Positions 19,165-54,117 of a stretch of 64,000 nt of DNA are shown in pieces. Source of the stretch: Sutcliffiella horikoshii DSM 8719 (GTDB lineage Bacteria; Bacillota; Bacilli; Bacillales; Bacillaceae_I); NCBI GenBank assembly GCA_001648575.1, contig LQXN01000066.1, positions 248,001 through 312,000 of the forward strand. Reading direction: 5' to 3'. Each line of letters opens with the position of its first letter. Positions within the stretch are counted from its first letter, which is position 1. The translations under genes and the position numbers were made by a program. The notes beneath the pieces are model-generated. The model saw nothing but the letters and a program-made list of their open reading frames with translations, was not told where the DNA came from and ran no database searches.

Positions 19165-19192
19165 AACAGCCTCTCCTCTTGGAAGGGTTGTT
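19165..19192 (+). terminator. Left (degenerate) hairpin copy flanking repeat copy A
   Basis: 28-base imperfect palindrome AACAGCC...GGGTTGTT. It is a near copy of the terminator at 19403-19430 on the other side of the repeat element; differences lie mainly in one arm. Confidence 0.7.
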
Positions 19193-19402
19193 CAGTGTGC
19201 AGACAAAGCTAAAATAATGAAATTCCCTAGTTGATCGTAGTGGAAGGCGCGCAGACTTCTGCGGGAGGAAGGGACAGGGAAGACCCCGCAGGGCGTAAGC
19301 CCGAGGTGGCTTCCGGACCGCCCGCGAAAAGCGAAGCGCCTGCAACGGAGATCAACTGTTCCAACAGATAACCTAATTAACTTATAGTTTGTCAACAGTC
19401 TG
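19193..19402 (-). repeat. 210-bp dispersed repeat, copy A (reverse orientation)
   Basis: Runs from CAGTGTGCAGACAAAG to TTTGTCAACAGTCTG. Read on the minus strand it matches copies B and C end to end, with the same 210-base length. The core GTTGAT...ATCAAC holds nested complementary arms (AGGCGC/GCGCCT, GGAAG/CTTCC, GGGC/GCCC). It is flanked by two copies of a hairpin. No coding capacity; the intervening 387-base gap between genes is filled by this element and its flanks. Confidence 0.85.
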
Positions 19403-19434
19403 GCAGCCCTCTCCTTTTGGAAGGGCTGTTTTTT
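19403..19434. terminator. Right hairpin copy flanking repeat copy A (functional terminator)
   Basis: CAGCCCT pairs with AGGGCTG around a short inner stem and TTTT loop, followed by six T residues on the plus strand. It sits between converging genes (18771-19076 and the MFS gene). Confidence 0.85.
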
Positions 19435-19463
19435 AGTTAGTGAGTTAATAAAATAGTTCATAC

Positions 19464-20606
19464 CTAAGCATCTTTCTTAATCCTAGTAATCATCAAGCAG
19501 TTGAGCAGGAACCATATTCCCAAAATGACTAATGCAGAATGAAAACGGAAGGTGTGGCTTATTAATGGACTTAAAGCAGTTCCAATCAATAAAGTGAAAG
19601 AATAAAGGGAGATCGCACTCCCCCGGTATTTTGCTCCGAGGACCCCGATAAAAATGATGATGGCAGGCAGGAAAAAGGAGATGGCTGCAACATAAATTAT
19701 GGATAATGCACCTATCAAGAACAGATTATCTCTGAATAGCATCATTAAAAAGAATGTAACGGAAATAGTCAAAGAGCAAAAGAAAATGAGCCGCTTGGTC
19801 CCGATATGCTTAATAAGAGTTTCCGAAAACAGGCAAGCGGCCGTGCCAATCAACCCGATGGAACGGACCAATAAAAATGACTGGTCAGGAAATTCCTTGG
19901 ATAAATATTGAAAAAGACTATCATAAAAAGTCACGAAAGAAAGCAATAAGGAAAAAACAATGAGATACAGAAATCTAAGATCACGGTCCGCCAAGAGGGT
20001 GAAAAAATTCCGCCAAGGCCATTGCCACGCATTATCCAGTGGATTTGATGATTTTAAAACAAGGAGTGCGAATAAAAACAATAAGAAATATAAGTATGCA
20101 AAGAGCACATAGACTCCGTCCCATTGATAATAAAAAGACACTTTCTCACTTATCATCGGTCCGAATATACCGGACAGGAGAAATCCGGCATTGATGAGGG
20201 AAATTGTATACGTACGAAGGGTTTGCGTGAAGTGATCAAAGCAGTAGGCGAAAGCTACAGGAGCAAAGCAGCCTAATGCAAACCCTTGGATGGAGCGGGT
20301 AAGATATAAAAAAGAAATATTGGTGGATTGGGAGACAAGTATTGTGGTAAGGGCGGAAAAGAGAAACCCGTAGCTGATGATGTTTTTTCTACCGAATCTA
20401 TCAGACAGTGGTCCGAACGTGAGCAGACCAATGGAATAGAAGATGCTAAAGAAGCTGCTTGCAAGTATTACCTTGCCAGTTGATACACGCCATTCCATAC
20501 TGATTTGGTCATAAAGCGGAATCAATGTGTACAGGTTGCAGACCACCAAAAACCCCATGATAATTAATAATGTTGCTGAAAAATAATGGTTATTTTTCAC
20601 TCCCAT
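19464..20606 (-). CDS. MFS transporter (drug/metabolite exporter type)
   Basis: 380 residues, 11-12 hydrophobic helices. The loop 2-3 signature appears as FGPLSDRFGRKNIISYG. ATG at 20606 in the context GGATGGGAGTG. Short MFS proteins of this kind are proton-driven exporters; the substrate cannot be told. No operon partner; it is divergent from addB. Confidence 0.88.
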   Translation of the reverse strand: MGVKNNHYFSATLLIIMGFLVVCNLYTLIPLYDQISMEWRVSTGKVILASSFFSIFYSIGLLTFGPLSDRFGRKNIISYGFLFSALTTILVSQSTNISFLYLTRSIQGFALGCFAPVAFAYCFDHFTQTLRTYTISLINAGFLLSGIFGPMISEKVSFYYQWDGVYVLFAYLYFLLFLFALLVLKSSNPLDNAWQWPWRNFFTLLADRDLRFLYLIVFSLLLSFVTFYDSLFQYLSKEFPDQSFLLVRSIGLIGTAACLFSETLIKHIGTKRLIFFCSLTISVTFFLMMLFRDNLFLIGALSIIYVAAISFFLPAIIIFIGVLGAKYRGSAISLYSFTLLIGTALSPLISHTFRFHSALVILGIWFLLNCLMITRIKKDA

Positions 20607-20696
20607 CCTACATCACCTGCCCATTCCACCTTATGCACCAAAGGTTTGACCGGTTCCGCACATGATTGAAACAGCCGTTTGAACAAGGTCAAGACA

Positions 20697-20726
20697 TTGG
20701 CAAATATGCTAGTTTTTCAGTACAAT
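20697..20726 (+). promoter_or_regulatory. Sigma-A-type promoter of addB
   Basis: TTGGCA, 18-bp spacer, TACAAT, about 65 bases upstream of the addB start. Confidence 0.6.
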
Positions 20727-20790
20727 AGAACCAGAAGAAGAACATAAGTGCGCATTTAATTTCTGCAAATTATAAAATGGGGGAAATCTT

Positions 20791-23700
20791 GTGTCTATAC
20801 GATTTTTATTAGGAAGAACAGGCAGTGGAAAAACAACATGGTTCCATGAACAGATCCTACATAAACTAAGGGAAAATCCTCAAGGCCCCCCTGTAGTGTA
20901 CCTTGTGCCGGAGCAGATGACATTTCAATCGGAATACCGCATTGTGCAGTCGCCGGATGTGGAGGGGATGATAAGGGCCCAGGTTTTCAGTTTTACCCGC
21001 CTTGCCTGGAGGATCTTGCAGGAGGTAGGTGGAATAAGCCGTTTCCATATCGACCAGACAGGCATACACATGATTCTTCGCAAAGTGATCGAAGAGCATA
21101 AAAATGAGTTTCATGTGTTCGGGAGGTCGGCGGAGCAGTTTGGATTTATTGAACAGATGGAAAGCATGATAACCGAATTTAAACGTTACTGCGTCACCCC
21201 GGATATATTGCAGGATGAAATTGTCCGAATTGGAGAAGACGCTTCTATATCAGAACATGAAAAAATGCTTGCGAAAAAACTGACAGATATTCTGGTAGTC
21301 TATCGTCAACTTGAACAAAGCCTGGAAGGTAAGTACTTGGATGGCGAGGACTATTTACAGCTATTAGCAGAAAAGTTGGGTCGATCCCGTTACATTCAAA
21401 AAGCCGATATTTTAATAGATGGTTTCCACAGCTTCACTCCTCAGGAAATGGAAGTACTGAAGGAATTGATGAAGCATGCAAACTCCGTTACCATCGCATT
21501 GACGGTAGATAAACCATATGATGAGCAAGCACCATATGATCTTCACTTGTTCCGAGAAACTGGGACAACCTATCAAAAGCTGAAAAAGCTTGCATTGGAA
21601 GAAGGGTGCTATGTCGAGGAACCTTTCTATTTGGAGGGGGCTCCTCGTTTTCATACTGATTCCCTATCCCATTTGGAACGATATTTTGATGTTCGTCCGA
21701 CGGTAAGCTATCAAGGCAATCCAGATGTCTCGATACTGCAAGCTGTTAACAGGCGGGCGGAAATAGAAGGGATTGCAAGGGAAATTGTCACTTTGGTACG
21801 TGATCATGGCAACCGCTATAAGGATATCGCCATCATCGTAAGGAACGCTGAATCCTATATAGATTTAGTTAATACGATTTTCAAAGATTATGAAATTCCT
21901 TTTTTCGTAGATCAAAAGCGGACAATGCTTCATCATCCTCTAGTGGAGCTGTTACGTTCAAGCCTAGAGGTTATTACAAGAAACTGGCGCTATGAATCGG
22001 TTTTCCGTTGTGTGAAGACGGACTTTTTCTATTCGATGGAGCAGGATATCAGCGAAATGCGAGAAAAAACGGACAAGCTTGAGAACTATTGTTTGTCTTA
22101 TGGGATCCAAGGGCACAGATGGACTTCTAAGGAGCCTTGGAAATATCGCCGTTTCTTCAGTGTGGATACAGATGGGCCATATGTGCAAACAGATGAAGAG
22201 CTTGCCTATGAAAAGGAAATCAATAAACTCAGAGAAATGATTGTCGGACCACTTCATATGCTTGAAAAGCGTTGGAAACGAGCAAAAACCATGGAAGGTT
22301 ATTGCAAGGCCCTTTATGAGTACATGGAAGATCTAGATATCCCGCAAAAGCTGGAAGCGAGGATGAGAAAGGCGGAAGAGGAAGGGGATCTTGCCGCTGC
22401 AAAAGAAAACGAGCAAGTCTGGAAGGCGATCATTCAGATGCTGGATCAAATGGTTGAATTACTCGGGGATCACCCGCTCTCTATGAACTTGTTTACAAAA
22501 ATGGTCGAAAGTGGATTGGAAAGTCTCCGCTTTAGTCTTGTCCCGCCTTCCATTGATCAGGTGATTGTCGCCAACTTTGATCTTTCAAGATTGTCAGATA
22601 TTAAGCATAGCTTTGTGATAGGGGTTAACGACGGGGTGATTCCCGCGAAAATAAAGGACGAGGGATTCGTGTCAGAAGAAGAAAGGGAGCTTCTGGCTAA
22701 CTATGGGATGGAACTCGCTCCAACAAGTATGGAAAGGTTACTTGGAGAACATTTCCTTGTTTACTCATCCTTTTTATGTCCGTCCCATCAGCTGTACATC
22801 AGCTATGCGCTCGCCGATGAAGAAGGGAAAACGTTGCTGCCATCTTCTTATATCAAAAGGATAAAGGAGATGTTCCCAGATCTAAGGGAAAAGCTTCTTT
22901 TTAACGAACCCGCAGAGCTTTCTCAAGAGGAACAGCTGATGTTCGTGCATACCCCTTCCACCACCCTCTCGAATCTGGCAGTCCAGCTTCAAGCTTGGAT
23001 GAAGAAATATCCGATTGAACCAATTTGGTGGGATGTATATAATGCGCTTCTTGATAGTGAAAAGTGGCAAGGGCAAACAGAGCAGGTATTAAGAAGTTTA
23101 TTTTATAAAAATGAAGCAAGGAAGCTTGAACAAAAGGTTAGCAGAGAACTATATGGAAGCCATATGGAAGCAAGTGTCTCAAGAATGGAAAAGTTCAGTG
23201 CGTGCGCATTTTCACACTTTGCTTCCCATGGATTGAAACTTAAGGATAGAAAAATCTATCGGTTGGAAGCCCCAGATATAGGGGAGCTCTTTCACGCCGC
23301 GTTGAAACATATTTCTGATAATTTAAGAAAAAGGGGCAGTGATTGGAAGCACTTGACGAAGCAGGAATGCGAGGTGCTTGCCAAAGAAGCGGTGCATCTG
23401 CTTGCCCCGAGATTACAAGGGGAAATTCTCCTGAGCTCCAACCGTTTTCAATATATCAAACGGAAGCTGGAAACGATTATTACGAGAGCATCCCAGATTT
23501 TGAGCGACCATTCCAAAGCAAGTAAATTCACACCTGTTGGACTGGAGCTTGGGTTTGGAAAGAAAGAAGAGCTGCCACCGATTCAGATTACTCTGCCAAA
23601 CGGGGTCACTATGGAGCTTGTGGGCAGGATCGACCGGGTGGATAAAGCAGAGGGAACCAATGGCGTGCTGCTTAGAATTATCGACTATAAGTCAAGCAAC

Positions 23701-24303
23701 AAAGCACTGGATTTAACGGAAGTCTATTATGGATTGGCATTGCAGATGCTGACCTATCTGGATATTGTTATCTCCCATTCACAAGGTTGGCTGGGAACTG
23801 AAGCGACTCCTGCTGGTGTGCTCTATTTCCATGTGCACAATCCGATGATCAAAACAAATGGAATGGCACCGGAGGATATAATCGAAGAAGAAATCTTCAA
23901 GAGCTTTAAGATGAAGGGTCTTTTACTTGGAGATGAGGAATCAGTCAAGCTGATGGATCAGACACTTGAGAGCGGCCATTCCAAAATAGTATCTGCAGCC
24001 CTTAAAAAAAATGGCGGTTTCCAGGCTAACTCTTCGGTTGCAAGTGAGGAAGAATTTACGCAGTTGCGGACCTATGTAAGAAAAACATTCGAAGATATCG
24101 GCATGAAAATATCAGAAGGGGAAACGAGTATTTCACCATATAAACTTAAGAATCAAATACCATGCACGTTTTGTTCTTTTAAATCTTTTTGCCAGTTTGA
24201 TACATCACTAGACGAGAATGAATACAGGCTCTTGACAAATATCCCGAAAAACGAAGTCATTCCGTCAATGAAAAGAAAAATGGAAGGAGGCGAGGAAGGA
24301 TGA
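20791..24303 (+). CDS. addB: AddB, ATP-dependent helicase/nuclease subunit B
   Basis: 1170 residues, GTG start. Walker A GRTGSGKT at 8-15; the rest of the helicase domain is degenerate, as usual for AddB. The C-terminal RecB-type nuclease has IDYKSSNKALDL and QMLTYLD. Four cysteines placed as in AddB iron-sulphur enzymes are Cys805, Cys1125, Cys1128 and Cys1134. With AddA it resects double-strand ends to Chi for recombination. It overlaps addA by 4 bases. Confidence 0.97.
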   Translation: MSIRFLLGRTGSGKTTWFHEQILHKLRENPQGPPVVYLVPEQMTFQSEYRIVQSPDVEGMIRAQVFSFTRLAWRILQEVGGISRFHIDQTGIHMILRKVIEEHKNEFHVFGRSAEQFGFIEQMESMITEFKRYCVTPDILQDEIVRIGEDASISEHEKMLAKKLTDILVVYRQLEQSLEGKYLDGEDYLQLLAEKLGRSRYIQKADILIDGFHSFTPQEMEVLKELMKHANSVTIALTVDKPYDEQAPYDLHLFRETGTTYQKLKKLALEEGCYVEEPFYLEGAPRFHTDSLSHLERYFDVRPTVSYQGNPDVSILQAVNRRAEIEGIAREIVTLVRDHGNRYKDIAIIVRNAESYIDLVNTIFKDYEIPFFVDQKRTMLHHPLVELLRSSLEVITRNWRYESVFRCVKTDFFYSMEQDISEMREKTDKLENYCLSYGIQGHRWTSKEPWKYRRFFSVDTDGPYVQTDEELAYEKEINKLREMIVGPLHMLEKRWKRAKTMEGYCKALYEYMEDLDIPQKLEARMRKAEEEGDLAAAKENEQVWKAIIQMLDQMVELLGDHPLSMNLFTKMVESGLESLRFSLVPPSIDQVIVANFDLSRLSDIKHSFVIGVNDGVIPAKIKDEGFVSEEERELLANYGMELAPTSMERLLGEHFLVYSSFLCPSHQLYISYALADEEGKTLLPSSYIKRIKEMFPDLREKLLFNEPAELSQEEQLMFVHTPSTTLSNLAVQLQAWMKKYPIEPIWWDVYNALLDSEKWQGQTEQVLRSLFYKNEARKLEQKVSRELYGSHMEASVSRMEKFSACAFSHFASHGLKLKDRKIYRLEAPDIGELFHAALKHISDNLRKRGSDWKHLTKQECEVLAKEAVHLLAPRLQGEILLSSNRFQYIKRKLETIITRASQILSDHSKASKFTPVGLELGFGKKEELPPIQITLPNGVTMELVGRIDRVDKAEGTNGVLLRIIDYKSSNKALDLTEVYYGLALQMLTYLDIVISHSQGWLGTEATPAGVLYFHVHNPMIKTNGMAPEDIIEEEIFKSFKMKGLLLGDEESVKLMDQTLESGHSKIVSAALKKNGGFQANSSVASEEEFTQLRTYVRKTFEDIGMKISEGETSISPYKLKNQIPCTFCSFKSFCQFDTSLDENEYRLLTNIPKNEVIPSMKRKMEGGEEG

Positions 24304-27300
24304 GTATGGAACTTCTTCCTAAACCGGCAGACGCCCAGTGGACCGAAGACCAGTGGAAAGCCATTGTCGCTTCCGGAAGGGATATTTTGGTTGCCGCAGC
24401 TGCAGGTTCCGGTAAAACAGCAGTCCTTGTAGAAAGGATGATTCATAAAATTGTGGAGGAGCATGTTGATGTGGACAGGCTGTTAGTCGTGACCTTCACA
24501 AATGCTTCCGCAGCAGAAATGCGTCATCGAATAGGGGAAGCGTTGGAAAAGCAGCTGGAGAAAAAGCCTGCCTCCCTTCATTTACGACGCCAGTTAAGTC
24601 TGCTTAATCGTGCTTCCATCTCGACCATCCATTCCTTTTGCCTGGACGTGATACGGAAATATTACTATTTGATTGATATCGACCCGAGTTTTCGGATAGC
24701 AGATACAACGGAAATCCAGTTGATGCAAGAGGAAGTGCTCGAGAATGTGTTTGAAGAGGAGTACGGAACTGAGGGGAATGATGGATTTTTTGAATTGGTT
24801 GACCGTTATACAAATGACCGATCAGATGGTGCCCTTCAACATCTCGTGCTTGACCTACATGAGTTTTCGCGGGCAAATCCCAATCCAGAAACATGGCTGG
24901 ATGGAATTGTGTCATTTTATCAGTCTACCAGTACGTTATCTATGGATGACCTCCCTTTTATTGAAACGTTAAAGAAGGAAATGCATTTGCAATTCCTCGG
25001 TGCGGAAAGTCTGTTGAAAAAGGCAATGGCGCTGACCCTGGACCCTGGAGGGCCTGCACCGCGTGCCGAGAACATTGAATTGGATCTAGCTCAACTTCAC
25101 AAACTTCAAGCAGCGTTGGATTCATCTTGGGACGAATTGTTTGCAGTGATGCAGGAGCTGGATTTCTCAAGGGCGAAAACATGTCGTGGTGATGAATATG
25201 ACAAAGAGTTGATCGAAAGATGGACCAAGCTGAGAAACAACGCCAAAGCAATGGTTCAAGGAATAAAAGATGAATTGTTTTCAAGGCGTCCGGAATCTTT
25301 CCTGAAGGATATGGAGGAACTTGCCCCTGTCATGGGAACCCTTGTGAATCTTGTGAAGAAGTATGGACGGGAATTCAGCCTGATGAAACAAGATAAGGGC
25401 TTGGTGGATTTTTCTGATCTTGAACATTTATGTCTGGCAGTCCTTACACATTATGAAAATGGGAAGTTAGATCGGTCAGAGGCAGCGATCCGATATCAGT
25501 CCACGTTCAAGGAAGTGATGGTGGATGAATACCAGGATACAAACATGGTGCAGGAAGCAATTTTGAAGCTTGTGACCAATGAGAACGAAGAATATGGAAA
25601 TATGTTCATGGTGGGGGACGTTAAGCAGTCCATCTATCGTTTCCGCCTTGCCGAACCGTTTCTATTCTTAAGCAAGTACAAACGATTTAACACGTCCGGC
25701 GAGAATACAGGACTGCGTATCGATTTGAATAAGAACTTTCGCTCGCGGCCAGAAGTTTTAGACGCAACAAATTTTATCTTCAAGCAGATCATGGGGGAAA
25801 CGGTTGGGGAGATCGATTATGACGATGAAGCAGAATTGAAATTCGGAGCCGCCTATTATCCGGAAGCGTCCAACAGGGAAGCGGAACTGCTTCTGCTTGA
25901 CCGCAGTGACTCTCAAGTAAGTGGAGAGGAGTTTTCGGAAGAAGCTGAAGAGCAAGTCGCACAGACAGGTTTTGATAAAGTGGAGCTTGAAACGGCACAG
26001 GTTGAAGCAAAGATGATAGCGCAGAAAATCAAGCACCTCGTTCAATCCGGATACGAAATTTATGATAAGGACAAAAAAGCAATGCGTGCGATCACTTACA
26101 GGGATTGTGTGATCTTGATGCGTTCTATGCCATGGGCTCCGCAATTCATGGAGGAGTTTAAACAAGAGGGACTGCCATTATATGCAAATCTGAGCACCGG
26201 TTATTTCGAAGCGACAGAAGTGGCTATTTTAATATCTTTACTAAAAATAATCGATAACCCGTATCAGGATGTACCACTGGCGTCTGTATTGAGATCTCCG
26301 ATTGTCGGATTAGATTCCAATGATTTGGCAACCATCCGCATTCAACAAAAAAGAGGATCTTACTATGAAGCATTGATGGCATTTTTGAAAAAAACACCGG
26401 ATTCATTGGAAGAAAGCAATCTTGTAAAAAGAGTGGGTTTATTTTTCGAGATGCTTCAGACCTGGAGAAGTTTCGCTCGTGAAGGTGCATTGTCTGAACT
26501 GATCTGGAAGGTCTATCAAGATACCCACTTTTTCGATTTTGTCGGGGGAATGCCTGGTGGGAAGCAACGACAGGCTAATCTAAGGGCGCTTTATGACCGT
26601 GCAAGACAGTATGAATCCACTTCGTTCAGGGGGCTATTCCGCTTTTTGCGGTTTATAGAAAGGATGCAGGACCGCGGGGAAGATCTTGGGGCTGCAAGAG
26701 CGCTCGGGGAACAGGAGGATGTTGTCAGGTTGATGACCATCCACTCCAGTAAGGGGCTTGAATTTCCTGTCGTCTTTGTTGCTGGACTGTCGAAACAGTT
26801 TAATATGATGGACTTAAACAGCAGCTACTTGTTAGATAAGGAGTTGGGTTTTGGCTCTAAGTATGTCAATGCAAAATTACGGATCACCTATCCTACCATC
26901 CTTCAGCTGGCATTGAAGCGAAAAGCAAAAGCACAACTCATTGCCGAGGAGATGCGAGTCTTATATGTAGCACTGACAAGAGCGAAAGAAAAACTTTACC
27001 TTGTAGGCACGGTAAAGGACTTTGAGAAATCGCAGGCGTTATGGAATGAGCATGCCAGTCATGAAAGCTGGTTGCTGCCGGACTATGCCAGGGCAGGGGC
27101 GAAATCCTATATGGACTGGGTTGGCCCGGCCCTCATTCGTCATATAGATGCAGAGGAATTGAGGGAAAATGGTTTATCCGGATTGGTTCCGGAAGACATA
27201 ACCAATCACCCTGCCTCATGGAAAGTATCTGTTACCAACGTGCATCAACTTTTGGAAGAATTGGAAACTGAACGGCATGAAGAAAACCATATTCTCGAAA

Positions 27301-33617: not shown

Positions 33618-33626
33618 AACGAATGA

Positions 33627-40684: not shown

Positions 40685-40695
40685 AGTTAGACACC

Positions 40696-41274: not shown

Positions 41275-41509
41275 AATAGTTTCCTCCAGTTACTATGAAG
41301 TTAGGTTTTCTGCCATTCTTCCCTTCTTTCCACCCCTTTAAACGGAAAGTTTAAAGTTCGGAATGGGAAATAAATCCTTTTGCTTGATTGGAAGGAAGAC
41401 TAACACGAAATCGACAGTGAAACCTTTCCGCTAATTCATGGTATAAGCACTCCTGGCATAGTATAGAACAGCCGTAGTTTGCTTAAAGCAGAGGAGTGGA
41501 TTGTACAAT

Positions 41510-43360
41510 ATGTGCGGTATTACAGGATGGATCGATTATAGAAGAGAAATTAAGGACCAAAAAGAAATAGTGAAGAAAATGGCAGAAACTTTATCGTTTC
41601 GTGGCCCTGATGATACAAATATCTGGATGGACCGTCATGTTGGATTTGGACATAAACGATTGGCGGTTGTCGACTTAGAGGGCGGCAAGCAGCCAATGAC
41701 AAGAACGAAAGCAGAAAAGAATTATACGATTTGTTACAATGGCGAGCTATATAATACAGAAGATATCAGGAAAGAGCTTCTCAGGAGAGGGTATTCTTTC
41801 CGAGGGCATTCTGATACAGAGGTATTACTGACTGCTTATATGGAATGGAAGGAAGAATGTGTCCATCATTTAAATGGCATTTTTGCCTTTGCGATATGGG
41901 ATGAAGAGAAACAGCAATTATTCATCGGGAGGGACCGGCTAGGGGTGAAGCCATTATTCTTTCATGAATCAAATGGAAAACTCATTTTCGGGTCGGAATT
42001 AAAAGCACTCCTTGCACATCCTGAAGTATCAAGCCAGGTTGGTTACGATGGGCTGGCAGAAATTTTTGGACTTGGGCCATCCCGGTCACCGGGACACGGT
42101 TTGTTCCATGATATTAAAGAGCTCCGGCCAGCTCACCTTCTCGTATTTTCCAAAAGCGGCGGGTTGAAAATTAAGCGTTATTGGAATGTGGAGAGCAAGC
42201 CGCATGCGGATACGCTTGATGAAACAGTAGAAAAGGTGCGTGATTTATTTACCGATGCCGTGACTAGACAGCTGGTTTCCGATGTTCCCGTGTGTACGTT
42301 ACTTTCAGGAGGGCTTGATTCCAGTGCAATAACAGCCATTGCTGCCAATGCATTCAAAAGTGAAGGAAAACCGCCGTTAAACACGTATTCCATAGATTAC
42401 GAAGAAAACGATAAATATTTCAAAGCGAATGAATTCCAACCGAACTCTGATGAAAAATGGATCAGGAAGATGACCGAAACCTTTGGCACGATACATCATC
42501 GCTCTGTCATTTCCCAGACGAATCTCGCTGCTTACTTAAAGGAAGCAGTCCTTGTGCGAGACCAACCGGGAATGGCCGATATTGATTCCTCGCTATTATG
42601 GTTTTGCCGAGAAATAAAACAAAACTATGTGGTGAGCCTTTCGGGGGAATGTGCCGATGAGATCTTTGGGGGGTATCCGTGGTTCCATCGACCAGAGGAC
42701 TTAGCATCGAGCAATTTCCCTTGGATGCGCTCGACACAGGCAAGGATGGAGCTGCTCCGGCCGGAATGGAGTAGAAAGCTAAAGCTGGATGAATATATTA
42801 CTTCTAAATTTGAAGAAACGGTAAAGGAGACTCCAAGATTAGAAGGGGAAAGTTTCGTTGAGTCAAGAAGACGGGAACTATTCTATCTGAATATGATATG
42901 GTTCATGACAACCTTGCTTGATAGAAAAGACAGAATGAGCATGGGCGCAAGCCTTGAGGTCAGAGTGCCTTTTGCGGACCACAGATTAGTCGAATATGTT
43001 TGGAACATCCCGTGGGAAATGAAGATGCATGGGAATAGGGAAAAAGGAATCTTAAGAAAGGCGTTGGAAGGTATATTGCCAGAAGAAGTTCTCTATCGCA
43101 AGAAAAGTCCGTATCCAAAGACACATCATCCTGTTTATACGAAACTCGTCAAAGATTGGATGGAAGAAATTCTGCAGGATAATACAAGTCCGTTGCTTGA
43201 GTTTTTCGAGAAAAAGAAGCTTCAGGACATTGTATCTTCAGAAGGAAAAGCCTTTCAGGTACCTTGGTTTGGTCAATTGATGTCAGGTCCTCAGCTTCTC
43301 GCACATCTGGCACAAATTCATGTATGGTTCACCCATTATGGAGTAACAATAAAGGAATAA
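41510..43360 (+). CDS. asnO: Asparagine synthetase, glutamine-hydrolysing (AsnO/AsnB)
   Basis: 616 residues from ATG 41510, so that the catalytic Cys follows Met (MCGITGWIDY). The N-terminal class II glutaminase has RLAVVDLEGGKQPM and NGELYN; the synthetase domain has the PP-loop LLSGGLDSSAI and ECADEIFGGYPWF. The best-placed ribosome site (AGAGGAG) is nearer an in-frame TTG at 41501, which would add three residues before MetCys; see findings. The position next to yisN identifies the sporulation-linked AsnO orthologue. Confidence 0.92.
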   Translation: MCGITGWIDYRREIKDQKEIVKKMAETLSFRGPDDTNIWMDRHVGFGHKRLAVVDLEGGKQPMTRTKAEKNYTICYNGELYNTEDIRKELLRRGYSFRGHSDTEVLLTAYMEWKEECVHHLNGIFAFAIWDEEKQQLFIGRDRLGVKPLFFHESNGKLIFGSELKALLAHPEVSSQVGYDGLAEIFGLGPSRSPGHGLFHDIKELRPAHLLVFSKSGGLKIKRYWNVESKPHADTLDETVEKVRDLFTDAVTRQLVSDVPVCTLLSGGLDSSAITAIAANAFKSEGKPPLNTYSIDYEENDKYFKANEFQPNSDEKWIRKMTETFGTIHHRSVISQTNLAAYLKEAVLVRDQPGMADIDSSLLWFCREIKQNYVVSLSGECADEIFGGYPWFHRPEDLASSNFPWMRSTQARMELLRPEWSRKLKLDEYITSKFEETVKETPRLEGESFVESRRRELFYLNMIWFMTTLLDRKDRMSMGASLEVRVPFADHRLVEYVWNIPWEMKMHGNREKGILRKALEGILPEEVLYRKKSPYPKTHHPVYTKLVKDWMEEILQDNTSPLLEFFEKKKLQDIVSSEGKAFQVPWFGQLMSGPQLLAHLAQIHVWFTHYGVTIKE

Positions 43361-43424: not shown

Positions 43425-43449
43425 AAAAACTCCTTGATTAGGAGTTTTT
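43425..43449 (+). terminator. asnO terminator, left duplicate flanking repeat copy B
   Basis: 25-base palindrome: AAAAACTCC, 7-base loop, GGAGTTTTT. All 25 bases recur at 43660-43684 on the far side of the repeat. Confidence 0.9.
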
Positions 43450-43659
43450 CAGACTGTTGACAAACTATCTAGCAGATAAGGTTATTGGATGGAACAGTTG
43501 ATCTCCGTTGCAGGAGCTACGCTTTCCTGCGGGCGGTCCGTAAGCCTCCTCGGCTACGCCTGCGGGGTCTTACATGTCCCTTCCTCCCGCGGGAGTCTTC
43601 GCTCCTTCCACTGCGATCAACTAGGGAATTTCATTATTTTAAGCTTTGTCTACACACTG
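43450..43659 (+). repeat. 210-bp dispersed repeat, copy B
   Basis: Begins CAGACTGTTGACAAAC and ends GCTTTGTCTACACACTG; ends are imperfect inverted repeats. The structured core is 43497-43621, with arms AGGAGC (43512-43517) / GCTCCT (43601-43606) and GTAAG (43540-43544) / CTTAC (43569-43573). The arm pair AGGAGC/GCTCCT replaces AGGCGC/GCGCCT of the other copies. The gap 43361-43857 between asnO and crtN holds this element, its duplicated flanks and the crtN promoter. Confidence 0.88.
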
Positions 43660-43684
43660 AAAAACTCCTTGATTAGGAGTTTTT
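43660..43684 (+). terminator. asnO terminator, right duplicate flanking repeat copy B
   Basis: Identical in all 25 bases to 43425-43449. Confidence 0.9.
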
Positions 43685-46880: not shown

Positions 46881-47679
46881 ATCTATAATTAAAGAACATT
46901 CCAAAACATTCTACAAGGCGTTCATGCTATTGCCAAAAGAAAAGAAACAGGCAGTCTGGGCTGTATATGCTTTCTGTCGGCAAGTGGATGATATAGTGGA
47001 TGAAGGAACGGACCCTAAAGAGGAGTTATTTGTGTTTAAGCAGTCCTTTGCTGAATTTCTTGACGGTAACTTGCCATCAACCGATCTGATGTGGACTGCG
47101 CTTCAGGATGTATTCCGAAAATATGAAATGGATGTGCAAGCCTTTCATGATATGGTCACTGGCCAGGAAATGGATTTGTATAAGAAACACTATTATACAG
47201 AGGAAGAAGTACTTCATTATTCATACCATGTTGCAAGTACGGTCGGATTGATGTTGCTTCCCATCTTGGCGCCGAATAATAAAGATGCACTGCGAGAGGA
47301 TGCCATTGCACTTGGTCAGGCCATGCAAATAACCAATATCCTACGGGATATCGGGGAAGACCTTGAACGGGGAAGGATTTATTTTCCGATTGAAAAGCTT
47401 GAACAGGCGGGGTATTCTGTTGCTGAGCTCGAGATGCATATAGTGAATGATAAGTTCATTTCGGTTTGGGAGGACATGGCTGAAGAGGCGGAGAAATTAT
47501 ATGACCAGGCGATGAGTTCCCTTGACCTTTATCCCCTTCATTCCAGGACACCCGTAAAGGGAGCGGCATATTTGTATCGTGCAATTCTTGGGTCGATCAG
47601 AAAGAAAGGTTACTCGGTCTTTAAAACAAAGCATTATGTTAGTAGTGAAGAAAAGCGGGAGATTATTTCGCAAATATAG
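46846..47679 (+). CDS. crtM: CrtM-type 4,4'-diapophytoene (dehydrosqualene) synthase
   Basis: 277 residues. Trans-isoprenyl synthase with both Mg-binding aspartate motifs: DDIVD (48-52) and DIGED (168-172). It condenses two farnesyl diphosphates to a C30 precursor. In B. subtilis the related gene yisP follows asnO, so this gene occupies the yisP place but keeps both aspartate motifs. Confidence 0.9.
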   Translation: MTDLMKAYQHCESIIKEHSKTFYKAFMLLPKEKKQAVWAVYAFCRQVDDIVDEGTDPKEELFVFKQSFAEFLDGNLPSTDLMWTALQDVFRKYEMDVQAFHDMVTGQEMDLYKKHYYTEEEVLHYSYHVASTVGLMLLPILAPNNKDALREDAIALGQAMQITNILRDIGEDLERGRIYFPIEKLEQAGYSVAELEMHIVNDKFISVWEDMAEEAEKLYDQAMSSLDLYPLHSRTPVKGAAYLYRAILGSIRKKGYSVFKTKHYVSSEEKREIISQI

Positions 47680-47717
47680 AAAATCACCACGGTGGATGTA
47701 CACTGTGGTGATTTTTT
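47680..47717. terminator. Terminator between the converging crt operons
   Basis: AAAATCACCAC pairs with GTGGTGATTTT (14-base loop), T run after; A run before, so it may serve both strands. Confidence 0.9.
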
Positions 47718-47773
47718 GATGTGAGGGGTATCATTTTCTAGCGCTGGCGTACGCGCCCTTTCCATTAATGCAC

Positions 47774-49246
47774 TCAAATTTTATAGCTGTTTGCAATGAC
47801 TTTACCTACATTCAACCCTGATAGGGTGACCATCGGGGAGCCTCCGCCAGGGTGGGTGGAGCCGCCCACAAAGTAAAGGTTTGCGATATCGGCAGATTTG
47901 TTTCTTGGGCGGAAGAAGGCATCCATTTTACGGTTGGAAGCCACTCCGTATAGTGCGCCTTTAAAGGCGCCGAACATCGATTGAATATCGCTTGGGGAGA
48001 TGACCTTATCAACTAAGACATCTTCCTTAAGAGACAGGCCCTTTTCAGTCAAGGAATTGTATATCAGCTCTTTATAAGTTTCAGACCCCATGGAAGATTC
48101 CCCTCCGGTTGCTGGAGCATTCACCAAAATAAATAGATTATCCCCGTTAGGGCTTTTTTCTTTTTCAGTAAAAGAAGAGTTACTGAGATAGATGGTGGGG
48201 TCCTTTGCATATTGCCTGTCCTCAAACAAACTCTTAAATTCCATTTGGTAATCTTTTGAAAAGAAAACAGTGTGGTGGAGAAGCTTTGAATGCCTTTTGT
48301 TCATCTCGGCAAGAACAACATATGCTGATATTGATGGTTCATAACCAGCTGCTTTTTTATCGGTAAAGTGTGGCCTGTCCACTTCATTGACAAGCTCTGG
48401 GTATGCAACCAACAGGTCTGCGTTCATGACAATTATGTCTGCCATATACCGCTCGCCGTCTTCGGTTGAAACGGACACGGCCTGCTTGTTTTTTACTTCA
48501 ATACTCGTAACCTTGCAGTTTGTTCTTATGGATACACCTATCTTTTTGGCAACCTCTTCAAAACCTGTTGCGATATTCGTATTCCCGCCTTTTGTATAGT
48601 AAACACCATCCACAAGTTCCAAATATGCGATTAACCCAAAAGTCGCTGGTGAGACATAGGGAGATGATCCAATATAGGTTGCATAACGGTCCAAAGCCTG
48701 AATGACAAAAGGATTGTTGAAAAATTTTCGGTGTAAGCTGTGTAATGATTGCAAAGGACGTACTTTGCTGAAGGAAAAGCCCAGCGCAGGTGATAAATAA
48801 TCAGAAGTGGACGTAAAGGTCCTGCGGAAAAACTGTGCCTCTCCCAGCCTGTATAATCTAGTAACCTCTTTTAGGAAAGCTTCGTAGTTCTTTGCACTGG
48901 TTGGGTCTAAAATTGCAAGTTGTTCCTTCATCTTTTCTTTTTCGGAACTGAAGTCGAGAATTGTCCCATCAGGAAAATAATTTCTTGTATGGTTAGGAAG
49001 TTTCATAAAGCTAAAATAGTCTTCTGGATCTTCGCCTGTTTGTGAAATGACCTCTTTAAAAACATCTGGCATGGTAATGGTATTTGGCCCAAAATCGAAA
49101 GATGCCTGTCCTAATTGAACGGGCATCAGTTTGCCGCCTAAATGTTTATTTTTTTCGAGTAAGGTTACGTCAAAACCGTTAGAGGCAAGGGTAATGGCAG
49201 CTGAAAGCCCACCAAGGCCTCCACCAATGACAATCACTTTTTTCAT
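47774..49246 (-). CDS. crtP: CrtP-type diapolycopene oxidase (CrtNb)
   Basis: 490 residues. FAD motif VIGGGLGGLSAAITL, GGKLMPVQLGQASFDFGPNT, YIGSSPYVSPA and C-terminal LYFVGGSTHPGGGSPMVTLSG. These follow Staphylococcus CrtP, which oxidises the terminal methyl group of the C30 carotenoid to an aldehyde/acid. Last gene of the minus-strand crt operon; overlaps the glycosyltransferase by 4 bases. Confidence 0.85.
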   Translation of the reverse strand: MKKVIVIGGGLGGLSAAITLASNGFDVTLLEKNKHLGGKLMPVQLGQASFDFGPNTITMPDVFKEVISQTGEDPEDYFSFMKLPNHTRNYFPDGTILDFSSEKEKMKEQLAILDPTSAKNYEAFLKEVTRLYRLGEAQFFRRTFTSTSDYLSPALGFSFSKVRPLQSLHSLHRKFFNNPFVIQALDRYATYIGSSPYVSPATFGLIAYLELVDGVYYTKGGNTNIATGFEEVAKKIGVSIRTNCKVTSIEVKNKQAVSVSTEDGERYMADIIVMNADLLVAYPELVNEVDRPHFTDKKAAGYEPSISAYVVLAEMNKRHSKLLHHTVFFSKDYQMEFKSLFEDRQYAKDPTIYLSNSSFTEKEKSPNGDNLFILVNAPATGGESSMGSETYKELIYNSLTEKGLSLKEDVLVDKVISPSDIQSMFGAFKGALYGVASNRKMDAFFRPRNKSADIANLYFVGGSTHPGGGSPMVTLSGLNVGKVIANSYKI

Positions 49247-50352
49247 TTATAGGCACGCCCCTTCCAGATATAATGTTGATTCTTCAAAGACTTCCACATG
49301 GAAGCGTGCATGATGACAAGGAAAGCAAGGGCGCTAAGGGGCATAAACAAAAATAGGTATGAAGCTTGCCCCGTCTTCAAGTCAATATAAAGTTTTTGCG
49401 CCCAGACAAGCAAAAGGGGCACGAGGAACCATATCCCGTAAAAGGGGGTCAAAAAGGCTAAAATGAGAGGAAGTACATATAACAAACTGTAATAGATGGT
49501 TAAAAAAGTGACCATAATAGGGGATTTCCCTATTCCAATGTAGATATTTTTCAAAAACCCATTCCAGACCTCTGCATTGGTTTCATACATGTGACAGGTG
49601 ACAAAAGGGGTCGCATTAATCAATTTCACTTTGAAACCGTGCTCCTTCATGACTCTTGCTAAATGAACATCCTCCACGATACTGGATTTTACGGCAACGT
49701 GTCCATCCACAAAATCATAGGCACTTCGCTCAAAAAACATAAAAGCTCCATGTGCAGCACTTGCTGGTTTGAAGGAGCTGTAATTGGCCAAGGCTAATGG
49801 GAGGTGAAGCCAGATGACAAAATGCTGCATCGGTACCAACAATTTACTTAACCATGATGTTATCGGAAAATGGGGGAAACCAGTGACAAGACCTACATTT
49901 TCATCCTTAAAAAAAGGCAGCATGCTTTCAATGGTGTTCTCCTTTAAACGGGCATCCGCATCAAGGAAAAGAAAATAGTCTCCATTTGCGGCATGAGAGA
50001 GTTGATGGCAAGCGTGTACTTTACCTGCCCATCCTTTTTTCAAAGGGGCACCCTGGATAAGGGAGAAGCGACTGTCCATTTTTGTTAGCTCCAGCGCCTT
50101 GGAGTAAGTTTCGTCAGAGGAATGGTCATCCAGCAGAACGATCTCCAGGTTCGGAAAGGTGAGATGTTTCAAGTTTTCAATAAGTGGTTGAACGTTGCGC
50201 TCTTCATCACGCATCGGAATGAGAATGGAAACAAGAGGAGTTGGTGAAAGTTTGGATGGATTTTGGTAGCTTGGGTAGAATTGACCATTGATGACAATCC
50301 AAAGGAAAGAAACGGCCAGGGTGGCAGAAAGCAGATAGATGAATAATTCCAT
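49243..50352 (-). CDS. crtQ: CrtQ-type membrane glycosyltransferase (GT2)
   Basis: 369 residues. N-terminal helix, then GT2 domain (PLVSILIPMRDEERNV, LDDHSSDET, FLDADARL, VEDVHLARVMKEHG) and three C-terminal helices. In staphyloxanthin synthesis CrtQ glucosylates the carotenoid acid. ATG after GGAGGAAACC. Confidence 0.87.
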   Translation of the reverse strand: MELFIYLLSATLAVSFLWIVINGQFYPSYQNPSKLSPTPLVSILIPMRDEERNVQPLIENLKHLTFPNLEIVLLDDHSSDETYSKALELTKMDSRFSLIQGAPLKKGWAGKVHACHQLSHAANGDYFLFLDADARLKENTIESMLPFFKDENVGLVTGFPHFPITSWLSKLLVPMQHFVIWLHLPLALANYSSFKPASAAHGAFMFFERSAYDFVDGHVAVKSSIVEDVHLARVMKEHGFKVKLINATPFVTCHMYETNAEVWNGFLKNIYIGIGKSPIMVTFLTIYYSLLYVLPLILAFLTPFYGIWFLVPLLLVWAQKLYIDLKTGQASYLFLFMPLSALAFLVIMHASMWKSLKNQHYIWKGRAYK

Positions 50353-50376
50353 AACGGTTTCCTCCTTTGTGGTTTA

Positions 50377-51042
50377 TTATAGTAAGGGACTGTAGCTAGC
50401 AGTATTTTGGTCTATCACGTCCTGTTTCAGCCTATCAAGAAGATTCGTATAATGGTCTTCTAGATTTTGATTCTTTTCTTTAGATGAAGTCCCTTCAAGC
50501 TGGGAATAAAAAATAGGCTTACTGAGCTTAATGTATACTTCAGGTTTCCTCTCACCTGTAAACGAATAATACAGACAAACGGGGATGATTGGAATATCGG
50601 TGTTCTTCACGATATGAACAGCTCCTGGCAGGAATGCAAGCGGGCGGATTTCGAGGTGGCGTTCATCACCTTGAGGAAAAAGCCACAAAGTTTTTCCGTC
50701 TTTCAATCTATCCTTCGCATAATTCATGGAGCGGATGATATCCTTTGGATTCTCCCTATTCACCGAGAATCCCCCTATTTTACGGAAAAAAGGGAATTCT
50801 TTGATGCCTTTCTCGTGCATCATGACATAGCTCTCCTGTTTAATTACAAGCTGATTCAAATGGAAAACGACCAGCGCATCCCACCATGTGCTATGGTTGA
50901 CGATGAATAAAGCAGGGGAGCCTACCAAGGAAACACTTTCTTCCGCTGCAATATGTATCCCTCTGAAATGGAACCGTAGAAAGTGCTTGTTGAATTGATG
51001 AAAAAAGAAGTCAAACCGTTTGCTTTTTTTTGCTGGAATCAT
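50377..51042 (-). CDS. PlsC-type acyltransferase (CrtO-like role)
   Basis: 221 residues. HX4D acyltransferase motif NHSTWWDAL, then FPQGDERH and a VCLYYS strand, as in 1-acylglycerol-phosphate acyltransferases. Within this operon it likely esterifies the sugar of the glycosylated carotenoid with a fatty acid, the job CrtO does in Staphylococcus; sequence type differs from CrtO, so the assignment is by context. Confidence 0.82.
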   Translation of the reverse strand: MIPAKKSKRFDFFFHQFNKHFLRFHFRGIHIAAEESVSLVGSPALFIVNHSTWWDALVVFHLNQLVIKQESYVMMHEKGIKEFPFFRKIGGFSVNRENPKDIIRSMNYAKDRLKDGKTLWLFPQGDERHLEIRPLAFLPGAVHIVKNTDIPIIPVCLYYSFTGERKPEVYIKLSKPIFYSQLEGTSSKEKNQNLEDHYTNLLDRLKQDVIDQNTASYSPLL

Positions 51043-51802
51043 GCGCGAGCTCCTTTGAATTGAGAGTAGCCCAATATAATATAAGGGTAGGGATAATCGT
51101 TACGGTCAAAGCCAAATATAGCTTAGCTGATAAAGCTATCATACAAAACATGGCAATCATCAGGCCATATAATAGGTACATATTCTTTTCCCAATAAGCA
51201 TTTTCCTTTGAAGTAACGTCTTTTGAAAAATATAATATAAACAGATGGAATAATAACGACAACCCAAACCAACTATAGAAGTTGAACATCGGAATATCAT
51301 AATAGATGCTGGTGCCTTCCCATATCCAATATTCCTTTGCAAGAAAAGCTACGGGATCAATGATTAAGTCCAGTACAACTGTTGCAAATGCAGCAAGTAT
51401 CGCTTTTATGATCAGGGGTGCATGAGGGATTGCCCTCAGTGCTATCACATGAGATGTCGAAATGACCAATACCCAAGCGAAACCTATTGTGATGGGGACG
51501 TCAAAAAGCTTTGGGCCAAAATAGGAATTATAGTAATAGTCGCCAAAAAGGAAGCCGTATTTCACACCGTAATGTTCAGCAGCCATGGAAACGGTGAAGA
51601 CAATAGCTGTAAAGAGAGCACCGATGACACGGTAGTTTTTTATAAAGTAAATCGCCCCAAGAGTTCCGGCTGTAACAAGAAACACGACATTTGCCCATTC
51701 CAGCCATGGTGGCAGGAGGTCAAACGTCAGCAGTACGACACCGCATATGTACCAAATAATGAAGAATTTAAAAATCATTTTTTCCCATCTGCCAGTAGTC
51801 AT
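51011..51802 (-). CDS. CruF-like carotenoid biosynthesis membrane protein (DUF422)
   Basis: 263 residues from the ATG at 51802 (RBS AGAGGTG). About seven hydrophobic helices; HYGVKYGFLFGDYYYNSYFG and the acidic DLIIDPVAFLAKEYWIW are DUF422 features. Characterised relatives hydrate a terminal double bond of carotenoids (1,2-hydratase CruF, bisanhydrobacterioruberin hydratase). First gene of the minus-strand crt operon; the 3' end overlaps the acyltransferase by 32 bases. Confidence 0.82.
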   Translation of the reverse strand: MTTGRWEKMIFKFFIIWYICGVVLLTFDLLPPWLEWANVVFLVTAGTLGAIYFIKNYRVIGALFTAIVFTVSMAAEHYGVKYGFLFGDYYYNSYFGPKLFDVPITIGFAWVLVISTSHVIALRAIPHAPLIIKAILAAFATVVLDLIIDPVAFLAKEYWIWEGTSIYYDIPMFNFYSWFGLSLLFHLFILYFSKDVTSKENAYWEKNMYLLYGLMIAMFCMIALSAKLYLALTVTIIPTLILYWATLNSKELAHDSSKKKQTV

Positions 51803-51866
51803 GTTAATCACCTCTAGGTGGAATTATACCATTATAGTTAAATGATTGTATAGGTTTTGTATATGT

Positions 51867-51907
51867 AAAAAAGCGATCCGATGGGCTCAGCCATGGATCG
51901 CTTTTTT
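51867..51907 (-). terminator. Terminator after amtB
   Basis: AAAAAAGCGATCC pairs with GGATCGCTTTTTT (15-base loop); T run on the minus strand. Confidence 0.9.
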
Positions 51908-51945
51908 CCTATATCCATTATGGACACGGGTGAATGGGTTTAAAC

Positions 51946-53319
51946 TTAATTTGCTTCCGCTTTTTTTGAAGGGCTTTCTAGGTTGTTGAGTCGGTGGACA
52001 AGTCCGGTTCCGAATTCAGGTGCAGAGCTGTTATCGGAGAATACAGACTCTCTTAATTCGTAGGCTGCAGAACCATGTTCTACAAAATCGAGACCTGAAA
52101 TCTCTTCTTCCTTTGTTACACGGATGGTAGTGAATCTGGTGACAATGAAAAGGAATGTGCTGACAGCAGCTACTGTCCATGCTGAAACTGCTAGCACCCC
52201 AATCGCTTGCACGCCAAGTTGAGTGATGCCGCCACCGTAAAATAACCCTGTTGAAGTAGAGAATAAACCAACGGCAAGTGTACCCCAGATTCCACAGACA
52301 CCGTGAACTGCTATTGCTCCTACCGGGTCGTCAAGTTTCACTTTTCTATCAATGAATGTAACTGCTTCTACAAGAAGAACTCCTGCAATGAGACCGATAA
52401 TAATGGCACCAAAAGGTGATACGTCCCCTGTACCAGCTGTTATGCCGACCAACCCTGCCAAAGCGCCATTGAGTGTTAATGATGCATCAACTCTTTTGAA
52501 CCGTATATTCGTGTAAAATGCAGATGCCAATACTCCTCCTGAAGCAGATAACAAAGTGGTCGTAATCACATGAGGGATAAGCGACGGATCTGCTGCCAAT
52601 GTACTTCCGCCGTTGAATCCAAACCACCCAAACCATAAGATGAATACTCCAAGAGCACCTAATGGAATGTTGTGGCCGGCAATAACATTGACTTTCCCCT
52701 TTGAGTATTTTCCAAGACGCGCACCCAAGAACTTAACAGCAACCACTGCCCCGAGAGCGCCTGTGAGATGAACAACAGTCGAACCGGCAAAATCAGTGAA
52801 ACCGAGTTCAGCTAACCAACCGTCTCCCCAAACCCAATGTCCGACAATCGGATAAATGACTGCGGTCATGGCAACCGTCAACAAAATATAACTGGAAAGC
52901 TTCATGCGTTCAGCGACTGCACCTGAGATGATTGTGGCACAGGTTGCAGCGAACATTGCCTGGAATACGAAGAAACCGATTTGATCCTCATGGCCAGTTA
53001 AGAAAAATCCGTCCATCCCGGTAAAGCCTGCAATGGAACTCCCGAACATGAGCGCATAACCTAGTGCCAAATATAGGATGGCGGCAGTAGAAATGGTCAA
53101 GAAGTTTTTCATTAAGATATTGAGGGCGTTCTTTGATCGTGTAAAACCTGATTCCACCATCGCGAACCCTGCATGCATGAAAAATACTAAAAGTGCTGCA
53201 ACCATAATCCAAACCATATCAAGGGATACACTTAAACCTTCAACTGTAGGTGCTTGGGCATGTGCTGTGGAACTCACTAGTAATCCACCGGTGACAAGTA
53301 ATCCAATTTTTTTCTTCAA
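51946..53319 (-). CDS. amtB: Ammonium transporter AmtB
   Basis: 457 residues: signal-like N-terminus, 11 helices, ammonium-channel motifs (GHWVWG, STVVHLTGALGAVVAVKF, HNIPLGALGVFILWFGWFGFN). Longer C-tail than the B. subtilis protein. It follows glnK by 25 bases; the PII protein blocks the channel when nitrogen is ample. In B. subtilis the gene order is the reverse (nrgA-nrgB). Confidence 0.95.
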   Translation of the reverse strand: MKKKIGLLVTGGLLVSSTAHAQAPTVEGLSVSLDMVWIMVAALLVFFMHAGFAMVESGFTRSKNALNILMKNFLTISTAAILYLALGYALMFGSSIAGFTGMDGFFLTGHEDQIGFFVFQAMFAATCATIISGAVAERMKLSSYILLTVAMTAVIYPIVGHWVWGDGWLAELGFTDFAGSTVVHLTGALGAVVAVKFLGARLGKYSKGKVNVIAGHNIPLGALGVFILWFGWFGFNGGSTLAADPSLIPHVITTTLLSASGGVLASAFYTNIRFKRVDASLTLNGALAGLVGITAGTGDVSPFGAIIIGLIAGVLLVEAVTFIDRKVKLDDPVGAIAVHGVCGIWGTLAVGLFSTSTGLFYGGGITQLGVQAIGVLAVSAWTVAAVSTFLFIVTRFTTIRVTKEEEISGLDFVEHGSAAYELRESVFSDNSSAPEFGTGLVHRLNNLESPSKKAEAN

Positions 53320-53344
53320 TTATTATCATCCTTTCTATTATTGG

Positions 53345-53686
53345 TTAAATAATGGCGAGCTTTCCGCTTTCACCAGTTCGGATCCGGATGGCATCTTCAA
53401 TCGGATAGATAAAGATTTTTCCGTCCCCGACGGTGTTGCTTGAACAGATTTCTTGAATAATCTGTACAATTTCATCCACAAACTCACTTTCAACCACCAT
53501 TTCTACTTTTACTTTCGGAAGCAGTTTAATTTCGAATGTATTTCCTCTGAATAAACCTTGTTGTCCTTTCTGCTGACCGCATCCCGCGACTTCGGATACA
53601 GTGAGACCGTTGATTCCGACTTCTTCCAGTTTTTCGCGAAGAGCTCGGAATGTTTCCGGCCTGACGATGGCTTCTACTTTTTTCAT
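53345..53686 (-). CDS. glnK: PII signal protein GlnK
   Basis: 113 residues, standard PII length; VEMVVESEFVDEIVQIIQ and VGDGKIFIYPIEDAIRIRTGE are the conserved B- and C-loop segments. In the T-loop both Tyr46 and Tyr51 of the E. coli proteins are Phe (LFRGNTF), so uridylylation is impossible and control must be by 2-oxoglutarate and nucleotide alone. Confidence 0.95.
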   Translation of the reverse strand: MKKVEAIVRPETFRALREKLEEVGINGLTVSEVAGCGQQKGQQGLFRGNTFEIKLLPKVKVEMVVESEFVDEIVQIIQEICSSNTVGDGKIFIYPIEDAIRIRTGESGKLAII

Positions 53687-53708
53687 CGATACATCTCCTT
53701 TATCTTTG

Positions 53709-53725
53709 TGTTATATTTCCTAACA
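53709..53725. promoter_or_regulatory. GlnR/TnrA-type box inside the glnK leader
   Basis: TGTTATATTTCCTAACA fits TGTNA-N7-TNACA exactly. It lies about 20 bases downstream of the predicted start of transcription and 22 bases before the glnK codon, where binding would repress. Confidence 0.6.
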
Positions 53726-53743
53726 TCTGTAGTTATGTTTTAT

Positions 53744-53772
53744 ATCATATTTCATATTTAGATGACTTGCAA
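53744..53772 (-). promoter_or_regulatory. Promoter of glnK-amtB
   Basis: Minus-strand TTGCAA (53767-53772), 17 bp, TATGAT (53744-53749). Confidence 0.6.
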
Positions 53773-53795
53773 TAGGAATTATCGAAAAATTCAGT

Positions 53796-53809
53796 CGAAA
53801 GCGCTTACT
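53796..53809. promoter_or_regulatory. cre-like site upstream of glnK
   Basis: CGAAAGCGCTTACT matches 13 of 14 positions of the CcpA consensus TGWAARCGYTWNCW. About 25 bp upstream of the -35. Confidence 0.45.
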
Positions 53810-53813
53810 AGTT

Positions 53814-53830
53814 TGTAAGGAAATCTTACA
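53814..53830. promoter_or_regulatory. GlnR/TnrA-type box upstream of the glnK promoter
   Basis: TGTAAGGAAATCTTACA is a near-perfect palindrome fitting TGTNA-N7-TNACA, about 40 bp upstream of the -35. Confidence 0.62.
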
Positions 53831-53861
53831 TCTTGTCATTAAGAAATGCGTATATATAAAA

Positions 53862-53884
53862 AAGAACCCTCAGAGAGAGTTCTT
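53862..53884 (-). terminator. MATE-gene terminator, distal duplicate flanking repeat copy C
   Basis: 23-base palindrome (AAGAAC...GTTCTT, one mismatch) with T residues following on the minus strand. Identical in all 23 bases to 54095-54117. Confidence 0.88.
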
Positions 53885-54094
53885 CAGACTGTTGACAAAC
53901 TAAAAATAGTTAAGTTGTCTGTTGGAACAGTTGATCTTTGTTCCAGGCGCTTCGCTTTCCTGCGGGCGGTCCGTAAGCCTCCTCGGCTTACGCCTGCGGG
54001 GTCTTACATGTCCCTTCCTCCCGCGGGAGTCTTCGCGCCTTCCACTGCAATCAACTAGGGATTTTTATCATATTTGAACTTTGTCTATACACTG
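53885..54094 (+). repeat. 210-bp dispersed repeat, copy C
   Basis: Begins CAGACTGTTGACAAAC and ends CTTTGTCTATACACTG. Same length and layout as copies A and B, flanked by identical 23-base hairpins. It lies between the MATE gene and its terminator, in the 468-base gap shared with the glnK control region. Confidence 0.88.
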
Positions 54095-54117
54095 AAGAAC
54101 CCTCAGAGAGAGTTCTT
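54095..54117 (-). terminator. MATE-gene hairpin, proximal duplicate flanking repeat copy C
   Basis: Identical to 53862-53884, but here the minus-strand sequence after the hairpin is the repeat element, not T residues, so it is the weaker terminator of the pair. Confidence 0.85.

Follow-up and report, generated by a model that had tools for sequence, protein, structure and literature searches.

A 210-bp repeat of Sutcliffiella horikoshii lies between two copies of a site-specific hairpin and is probably moved by an IS1182-family transposase

The window, a stretch of 64,000 nt of the Sutcliffiella horikoshii DSM 8719 draft genome (67 contigs) corresponding to positions 248001–312000 of contig C4, contains three elements of 210 bp apiece, named A, B and C, each placed between two copies of a hairpin (Table 1). 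The elements run from CAG to CTG, and in copy B the termini read CAGACTGTTGACAAAC and, as reverse complement, CAGTGTGTAGACAAAG. The names of the asparagine-synthase-like and efflux-like genes were given from their translations alone. The original prediction had described three such copies with imperfect inverted ends, flanked by hairpins that are identical at B and C and diverged at A; the coordinates, the ends of copy B and the hairpin pairs were all confirmed. The copies in the window do not all conform to this arrangement, since the copy at 56557 has only one end and one hairpin. An Rfam search of the whole window returned nothing above the gathering score of any family.

Table 1. Hairpin copies and elements in the window (window coordinates).
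Feature	Positions	Strand	Remarks
Left hairpin copy at A	19165–19192	+	21/28 bases match the right copy, 19403–19430
Element A, MITE-like, 210 bp	19193–19402	+	As BLAST query, 47 matches in the host genome
Right hairpin copy at A, followed by T-tract	19403–19430	+	From the sequence
Left hairpin copy at B	43425–43449	+	25-mer identical to 43660–43684 (25/25); orthologous empty site with a single hairpin
Element B, 210 bp	43450–43659	-	3' of asparagine-synthase-like gene, 41501–43360
Right hairpin copy at B	43660–43684	+	Same 25-mer as 43425–43449
Hairpin copy at C, distal to the upstream gene, with T-tract	53862–53884	-	23-mer identical to 54095–54117 (23/23); terminator-like
Element C, 210 bp	53885–54094	-	3' of efflux-like gene, 54155–55507 (minus strand)
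Hairpin copy at C, beside the upstream gene, without T-tract (lost)	54095–54117	-	Same 23-mer as 53862–53884
One-ended decayed copy	56557–56764	-	Other end lost; single hairpin, 56526–56556, directly to the left

As RNA, filled site B folds with its two hairpin copies paired to one another in a single long stem (z −6.8 at −101.8 kcal/mol), and a scan of this site with a simple terminator pattern called neither copy. At site C, the pattern scan called only the distal copy, at 53885–53861, as terminator-like, one such match being found against 0.6 expected by chance. There the T-tract is kept by the far copy and is missing from the one nearest the gene, so termination may survive insertion of the element.

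For a survey of the host genome, elements were located by both ends, allowing at most three mismatches in each and five in total; elements with a flank shorter than 45 nt were dropped and left uncounted. The resulting sample of 68 comprises everything found on contig C4, where the finder counted 19 elements, and 49 loci picked for their BLAST similarity or an exactly matching right end. With at most one mismatch, the right end alone has 145 matches on both strands together, and the reversed pattern has none. A flanking direct repeat with a score of at least 12 is present in 64 of the 68 elements, compared with 10 of 5000 shuffled pairings, in which the left flank of one copy was matched with the right flank of another. 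A hairpin with a score of at least 6 is found at the left junction in 62 of the 68, at the right junction in 65 and at either in 67; the corresponding control is 5.2% of 1000 random positions on contig C4, or about 10% for either of two junctions. A chance origin of the flanking repeats and junction hairpins is excluded by these controls. Direct repeat and hairpin occur together in 63 of the 68 elements, and the arrangement is general in this genome.

Of the 64 direct repeats in the host, which are 15–38 bp long, 57 abut the left side of the element and 55 its right side. Their two copies are identical in 25 of the 64 elements and have diverged in the remainder. Of the five elements that do not combine direct repeat and hairpin, the one at C52:22237–22456 has differing left and right hairpins, which suggests recombination between two copies. 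The elements at C14:53674 and C4:70801 have a hairpin on a single side, and those at C52:2973 and C4:715 fall marginally below a threshold. DNA resembling the element is present in 38 of the 61 genomes of the set of relatives, including all 16 of the genus.

Taking open frames of at least 90 codons to stand in for genes, 38 of the 67 short elements are in a tandem, 26 in a convergent and two in a divergent context, one context being incomplete. Stop codon and element are separated by a median of 37 nt, enough for scarcely more than a hairpin. In the tandem cases the orientation of the element is the same in 21 and opposite in 17. Four pairs of neighbouring elements, with the same orientation within each pair, are spaced by 24–28 bp, the length of one hairpin; a crude estimate gives about 1.1 pairs expected within 80 bp. 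These pairs do no more than suggest that a doubled hairpin is reused, tandem duplication being also compatible with them.

The element is bordered by two copies of a site-specific hairpin, and its empty sites hold one. Comparison with relatives at four sites (B, C, D and E), in which the hairpins of empty sites were counted by eye, gave one hairpin where the element is absent and two in the host. At site B, 13 of the 14 paired relatives lack the element, and nine of these 13 have a single hairpin that is clearly orthologous to that of the host. Three more distant ones (G004, G005 and G009) have a single hairpin of different sequence, and in G010 no hairpin was visible by eye. The fourteenth relative, G015, is filled and has two hairpins around a longer, nested element. 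At site C, with 15 paired relatives, G015 and G012 have a single hairpin of the same type, without any repeat, and the distant G004, G005, G010 and G014 have one different hairpin and no repeat. The other nine bear other GC-rich repeats at this site, among them G002, with two hairpin-like copies around its repeat.

At site D (C66:99034), the two flanks of the filled site finish on one shared hairpin in seven of the nine paired relatives, overlapping by 30–33 nt; of the other two, G015 is filled and has two hairpins, and G005 aligns poorly. At site E (C3:205309), all ten paired relatives have one hairpin, with alignments that end before the junction. Sites D and E were searched individually. 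A comparison of contig C4 with 400-kb stretches of G015, in which the finder counted six elements, and of G002 gave ortholog pairs just at B and C, that is for two of the 19 elements, probably because gene order is not kept along the contig. Together with the direct repeats in the host genome, the single hairpins of the empty sites support the original proposal of a non-autonomous element for which the hairpin is the target duplication.

A larger element with CAG and CTG ends, which the original prediction had recommended searching for, does exist, carries a transposase and duplicates a hairpin likewise. In the host it is found at C4:393188–394685, as a 1498-bp IS with a broken transposase gene, sitting between two unequal hairpin copies; its ends differ from those of the MITE by two positions at each end. 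The statement that no transposase is encoded therefore stands for the three elements themselves, the only full-length IS of this kind found in the draft genome being decayed and located outside them. Outside the short fragments at the ends of contigs C49, C57 and C67, a search of the host draft turned up no intact IS with such ends. An intact relative of the host IS (L171, 89% DNA identity) is present in G001 and is bordered by two identical 30-bp palindromes. L171 and L400 are 1513 bp long, with imperfect terminal inverted repeats CAGCTTGTAG...CTACGGTCTG. Members of the IS1182 family are one-gene elements of about 1.3–2 kb. The 445-residue transposase of L171, which carries DDE-transposase Pfam domains, matches the NCBIfam IS1182 model NF033551 with 477.4 bits, and that of L179 with 485.6 bits, against a cut-off of 270. 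Over its 445 residues the G001 transposase is identical to one on an S. horikoshii plasmid. The right end of the MITE, CAGACTGTTGACAAA, was also found at the end of an IS in G005 (L172). The parentage of the MITE is argued from end similarity and shared behaviour, since only the ends are common to MITE and IS. Other matches to PF13751 in the host (C67:29426, C31, C53 and the start of C4) belong to another IS, which has different ends.

Full-length IS1182-family elements with the same type of ends are bordered by perfect palindromic repeats. A scan of genome contigs found relatives of the transposase encoded in at least 561 stretches, of which the best 80, all Bacillota by title, were taken; six lie at contig ends, leaving 74 assessable loci. 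In 60 of these 74 (30 genomes by title) a perfect direct repeat, 14 bp or longer, abuts the CAG end, a count that demands this end and is uninformative on IS with other types of end, and in which the loci are not independent, up to nine coming from one genome. Palindromes make up 57 of the 60 repeats, compared with 0.5% of shuffles, and the other three are weaker palindromes. Among these best 80 of at least 561 loci the repeats are 19 to 42 bp long, and for 46 of the 57 palindromic ones the two edges of the repeat are precisely the base of the stem. The remaining 14 of the 74 assessable loci, including all three of Thermoanaerobacter wiegelii, have no such repeat. Within one IS length, the length of the repeat varies in step with the hairpin: eight copies of a 1553-bp IS in Neobacillus drentensis have repeats of 22–30 bp, and ten copies of a 1738-bp IS, nine of them from Bacillus sp. 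OV166, have repeats of 24–33 bp. A record annotated as ISEfa7 has a 23-bp palindromic duplication and CAGACTGTAGACAA ends, and an IS of 45% identity, carried by a plasmid of Klebsiella pneumoniae, shows the same behaviour, with a duplication of 20 bp.

A DDE enzyme joins the two 3' ends of its transposon to opposite strands of the target, and the spacing of the two joints becomes the length of the duplication; for most DDE transposases this length is fixed and is set by the geometry of the enzyme. Judging from the ends, junctions and empty sites, the 210-bp repeat is very probably a MITE moved by an IS1182-family DDE transposase whose own element has CAG...CTG ends, the whole target hairpin being duplicated through attack at the 5' feet of a folded target. 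The duplication tracks the hairpin, differing between IS copies of equal length, and this speaks for a target read in folded form. The target would be recognised as a cruciform, or as a hairpin exposed through supercoiling, replication or transcription. The 3' ends of the transposon would then join the stem at its two 5' feet, one on each strand, after which repair of the gaps would copy the stem-loop on either side, giving a duplication as long as the hairpin. Terminators may be targeted as the most frequent strong palindromes of intergenic DNA, and termination could go on because the distal hairpin copy retains its T-tract.

The same end product would arise if a symmetric transposase dimer read the palindrome in linear duplex DNA and cut at its outer edges, making extrusion unnecessary. 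Symmetric targets and the even orientation of the elements in tandem cases are in line with this reading, which we nevertheless consider rather unlikely: the repeats range from 19 to 42 bp, and over 22–30 or 24–33 bp within one IS length, where most DDE enzymes have a fixed stagger, and the hairpins, judged by eye, have no sequence in common. Insertion at random, with selection keeping the copies at gene ends and a long duplication incidentally holding the terminator, would explain why 64 of the 66 classified elements are at such positions. Yet 46 of the 57 palindromic IS repeats have both their edges exactly at the stem base, which speaks strongly against it, because positional selection would not align a cut with the foot of a stem, and we regard this explanation as very improbable.

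Two other readings concern the origin of the second hairpin. Both hairpins might have pre-existed, or the second might have been added by later recombination or gene conversion; the four neighbouring element pairs spaced by one hairpin and the two hairpin-like copies around another repeat at site C of G002 could be read in this way, but the single hairpin in element-less relatives at B, C, D and E makes it scarcely credible. Replacement of the stem-loop, with deletion of the target hairpin as for IS1272, has in its favour that the family of the transposase and the kind of target are the same (passages of PMC5678879 and PMC4923244). As the hairpin is doubled at filled sites and single at empty ones, and none is lost, this too has next to nothing to recommend it. 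Attack by an IS1182-family transposase at the 5' feet of an extruded hairpin, or cruciform, is the reading that we prefer for the movement of the MITE.

Some members of the IS1182 family are known to target palindromes, and IS1272 and TnSha1, of Staphylococcus, insert at stem-loops or terminators without sequence consensus and delete the hairpin (passages of PMC5678879 and PMC4923244). The latter two share family and stem-loop targets with the system described here; in their case the hairpin is deleted or replaced, whereas here it is duplicated. In the model for IS1272, as far as the passage in PMC5678879 goes, attack at the 3' feet leads to loss of the hairpin, and attack at the 5' feet, with duplication, is drawn as a hypothetical pathway b. 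The genomic joints seen here fit this pathway. The known targeting of palindromes and this drawn pathway are precedents for the behaviour; the original prediction had known of no described element that shows it, but did mention elements with a preference for terminators or palindromes. Transposases related to IS1182 are described as acting with or without target duplication or deletion, on sequence or on structure (passage of PMC12056078), and for ISPse1 the direct repeat is apparently 4 bp (passage of PMC3281130). The family includes ISEfa7 of Enterococcus faecium; the transposase described here scores over the family cut-off and its IS, like the ISEfa7 record, has a palindromic duplication, although the passages on IS1182 and ISEfa7 in PMC5678879 and PMC4923244 hold no data on duplication of a whole hairpin.

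In its size of about 210 bp, lack of a transposase, ends shared with an IS and many intergenic copies, the repeat resembles the prokaryotic MITEs of PMC10969869, but the passages of that review consulted describe no duplication equalling a terminator hairpin, and a word search of the review for IS1182 gave no match. Among the papers listed by searches of one open-access library, none was found that shows a whole hairpin as the duplication or links a MITE to such a duplication. Entries for the IS1182 family in ISfinder have direct repeats as long as about 60 bp, so duplication of whole hairpins may already be partly recorded there. Palindrome targeting by IS1182 and hairpin deletion by IS1272 and TnSha1 are thus already known, and what appears to be new is the duplication of the whole hairpin at real sites and the MITE tied to it. 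REP elements are associated with a Y1 transposase (RAYT, a tyrosine transposase); the IS with similar ends found here differs from these in coding for a DDE transposase.

A duplication that follows the hairpin is unlike the fixed stagger of most DDE enzymes, and opens the reading of a folded target to direct test. It also suggests a route to high copy number in a compact genome, as insertion would break no gene and the terminator hairpin would be given back. For such repeats and ends, an annotation rule is supplied. With somewhat less confidence, we propose that some DDE transposases, found among Bacillota and on one or more plasmids of enterobacteria, form a group that recognises DNA secondary structure and lacks a stagger of its own. 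The size of the duplication would be dictated by the four-way junction, and each insertion would turn one target into two, so that copies could stack in tandem with termination intact.

In a transposase tree of 40 rows, in which long branches meet, four label changes are required to account for the duplicating set, and well-supported branches force three of these; 58% of the bootstrap trees place the non-duplicating rows on one side. IS1182 lineages of the genus with other ends (L401, L402, L404, L405, L406 and L409–L411) showed no such repeat. Two of these IS, L401 and L409, have ends like GAGGCTGGGACA...TGTCCCAGCCTC and no direct repeat; we take these ends to resemble those of IS1272. Duplicating and IS1272-like modes may coexist in one genus.

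The 210-bp element itself looks modular. Its inner GC-rich core, from about base 38, is 94–98% identical among copies with unlike outer arms (L011, L012, L022 and L042), and a related core without CAG ends occurs as a separate repeat in relatives, for instance at site C. Ends like CCACTGAAAAA...TTTTTCAGTGG mark a second repeat, which lies within the GC-rich repeats of L141 (site B of G015) and L121 (site C of G007), and L020 has a similar end. Ends of this second type resemble those beside another IS1182-type IS of the genus (L405 and L411). In L171 and L046, an inverted copy of the left terminal repeat, together with a T-run, follows that repeat (AGCTTGTAGAC...GTCTACAAGCTTTTTTT in L171), and the right end has a strong stem next to it. 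These structures could shield the transposase gene against transcription from outside.
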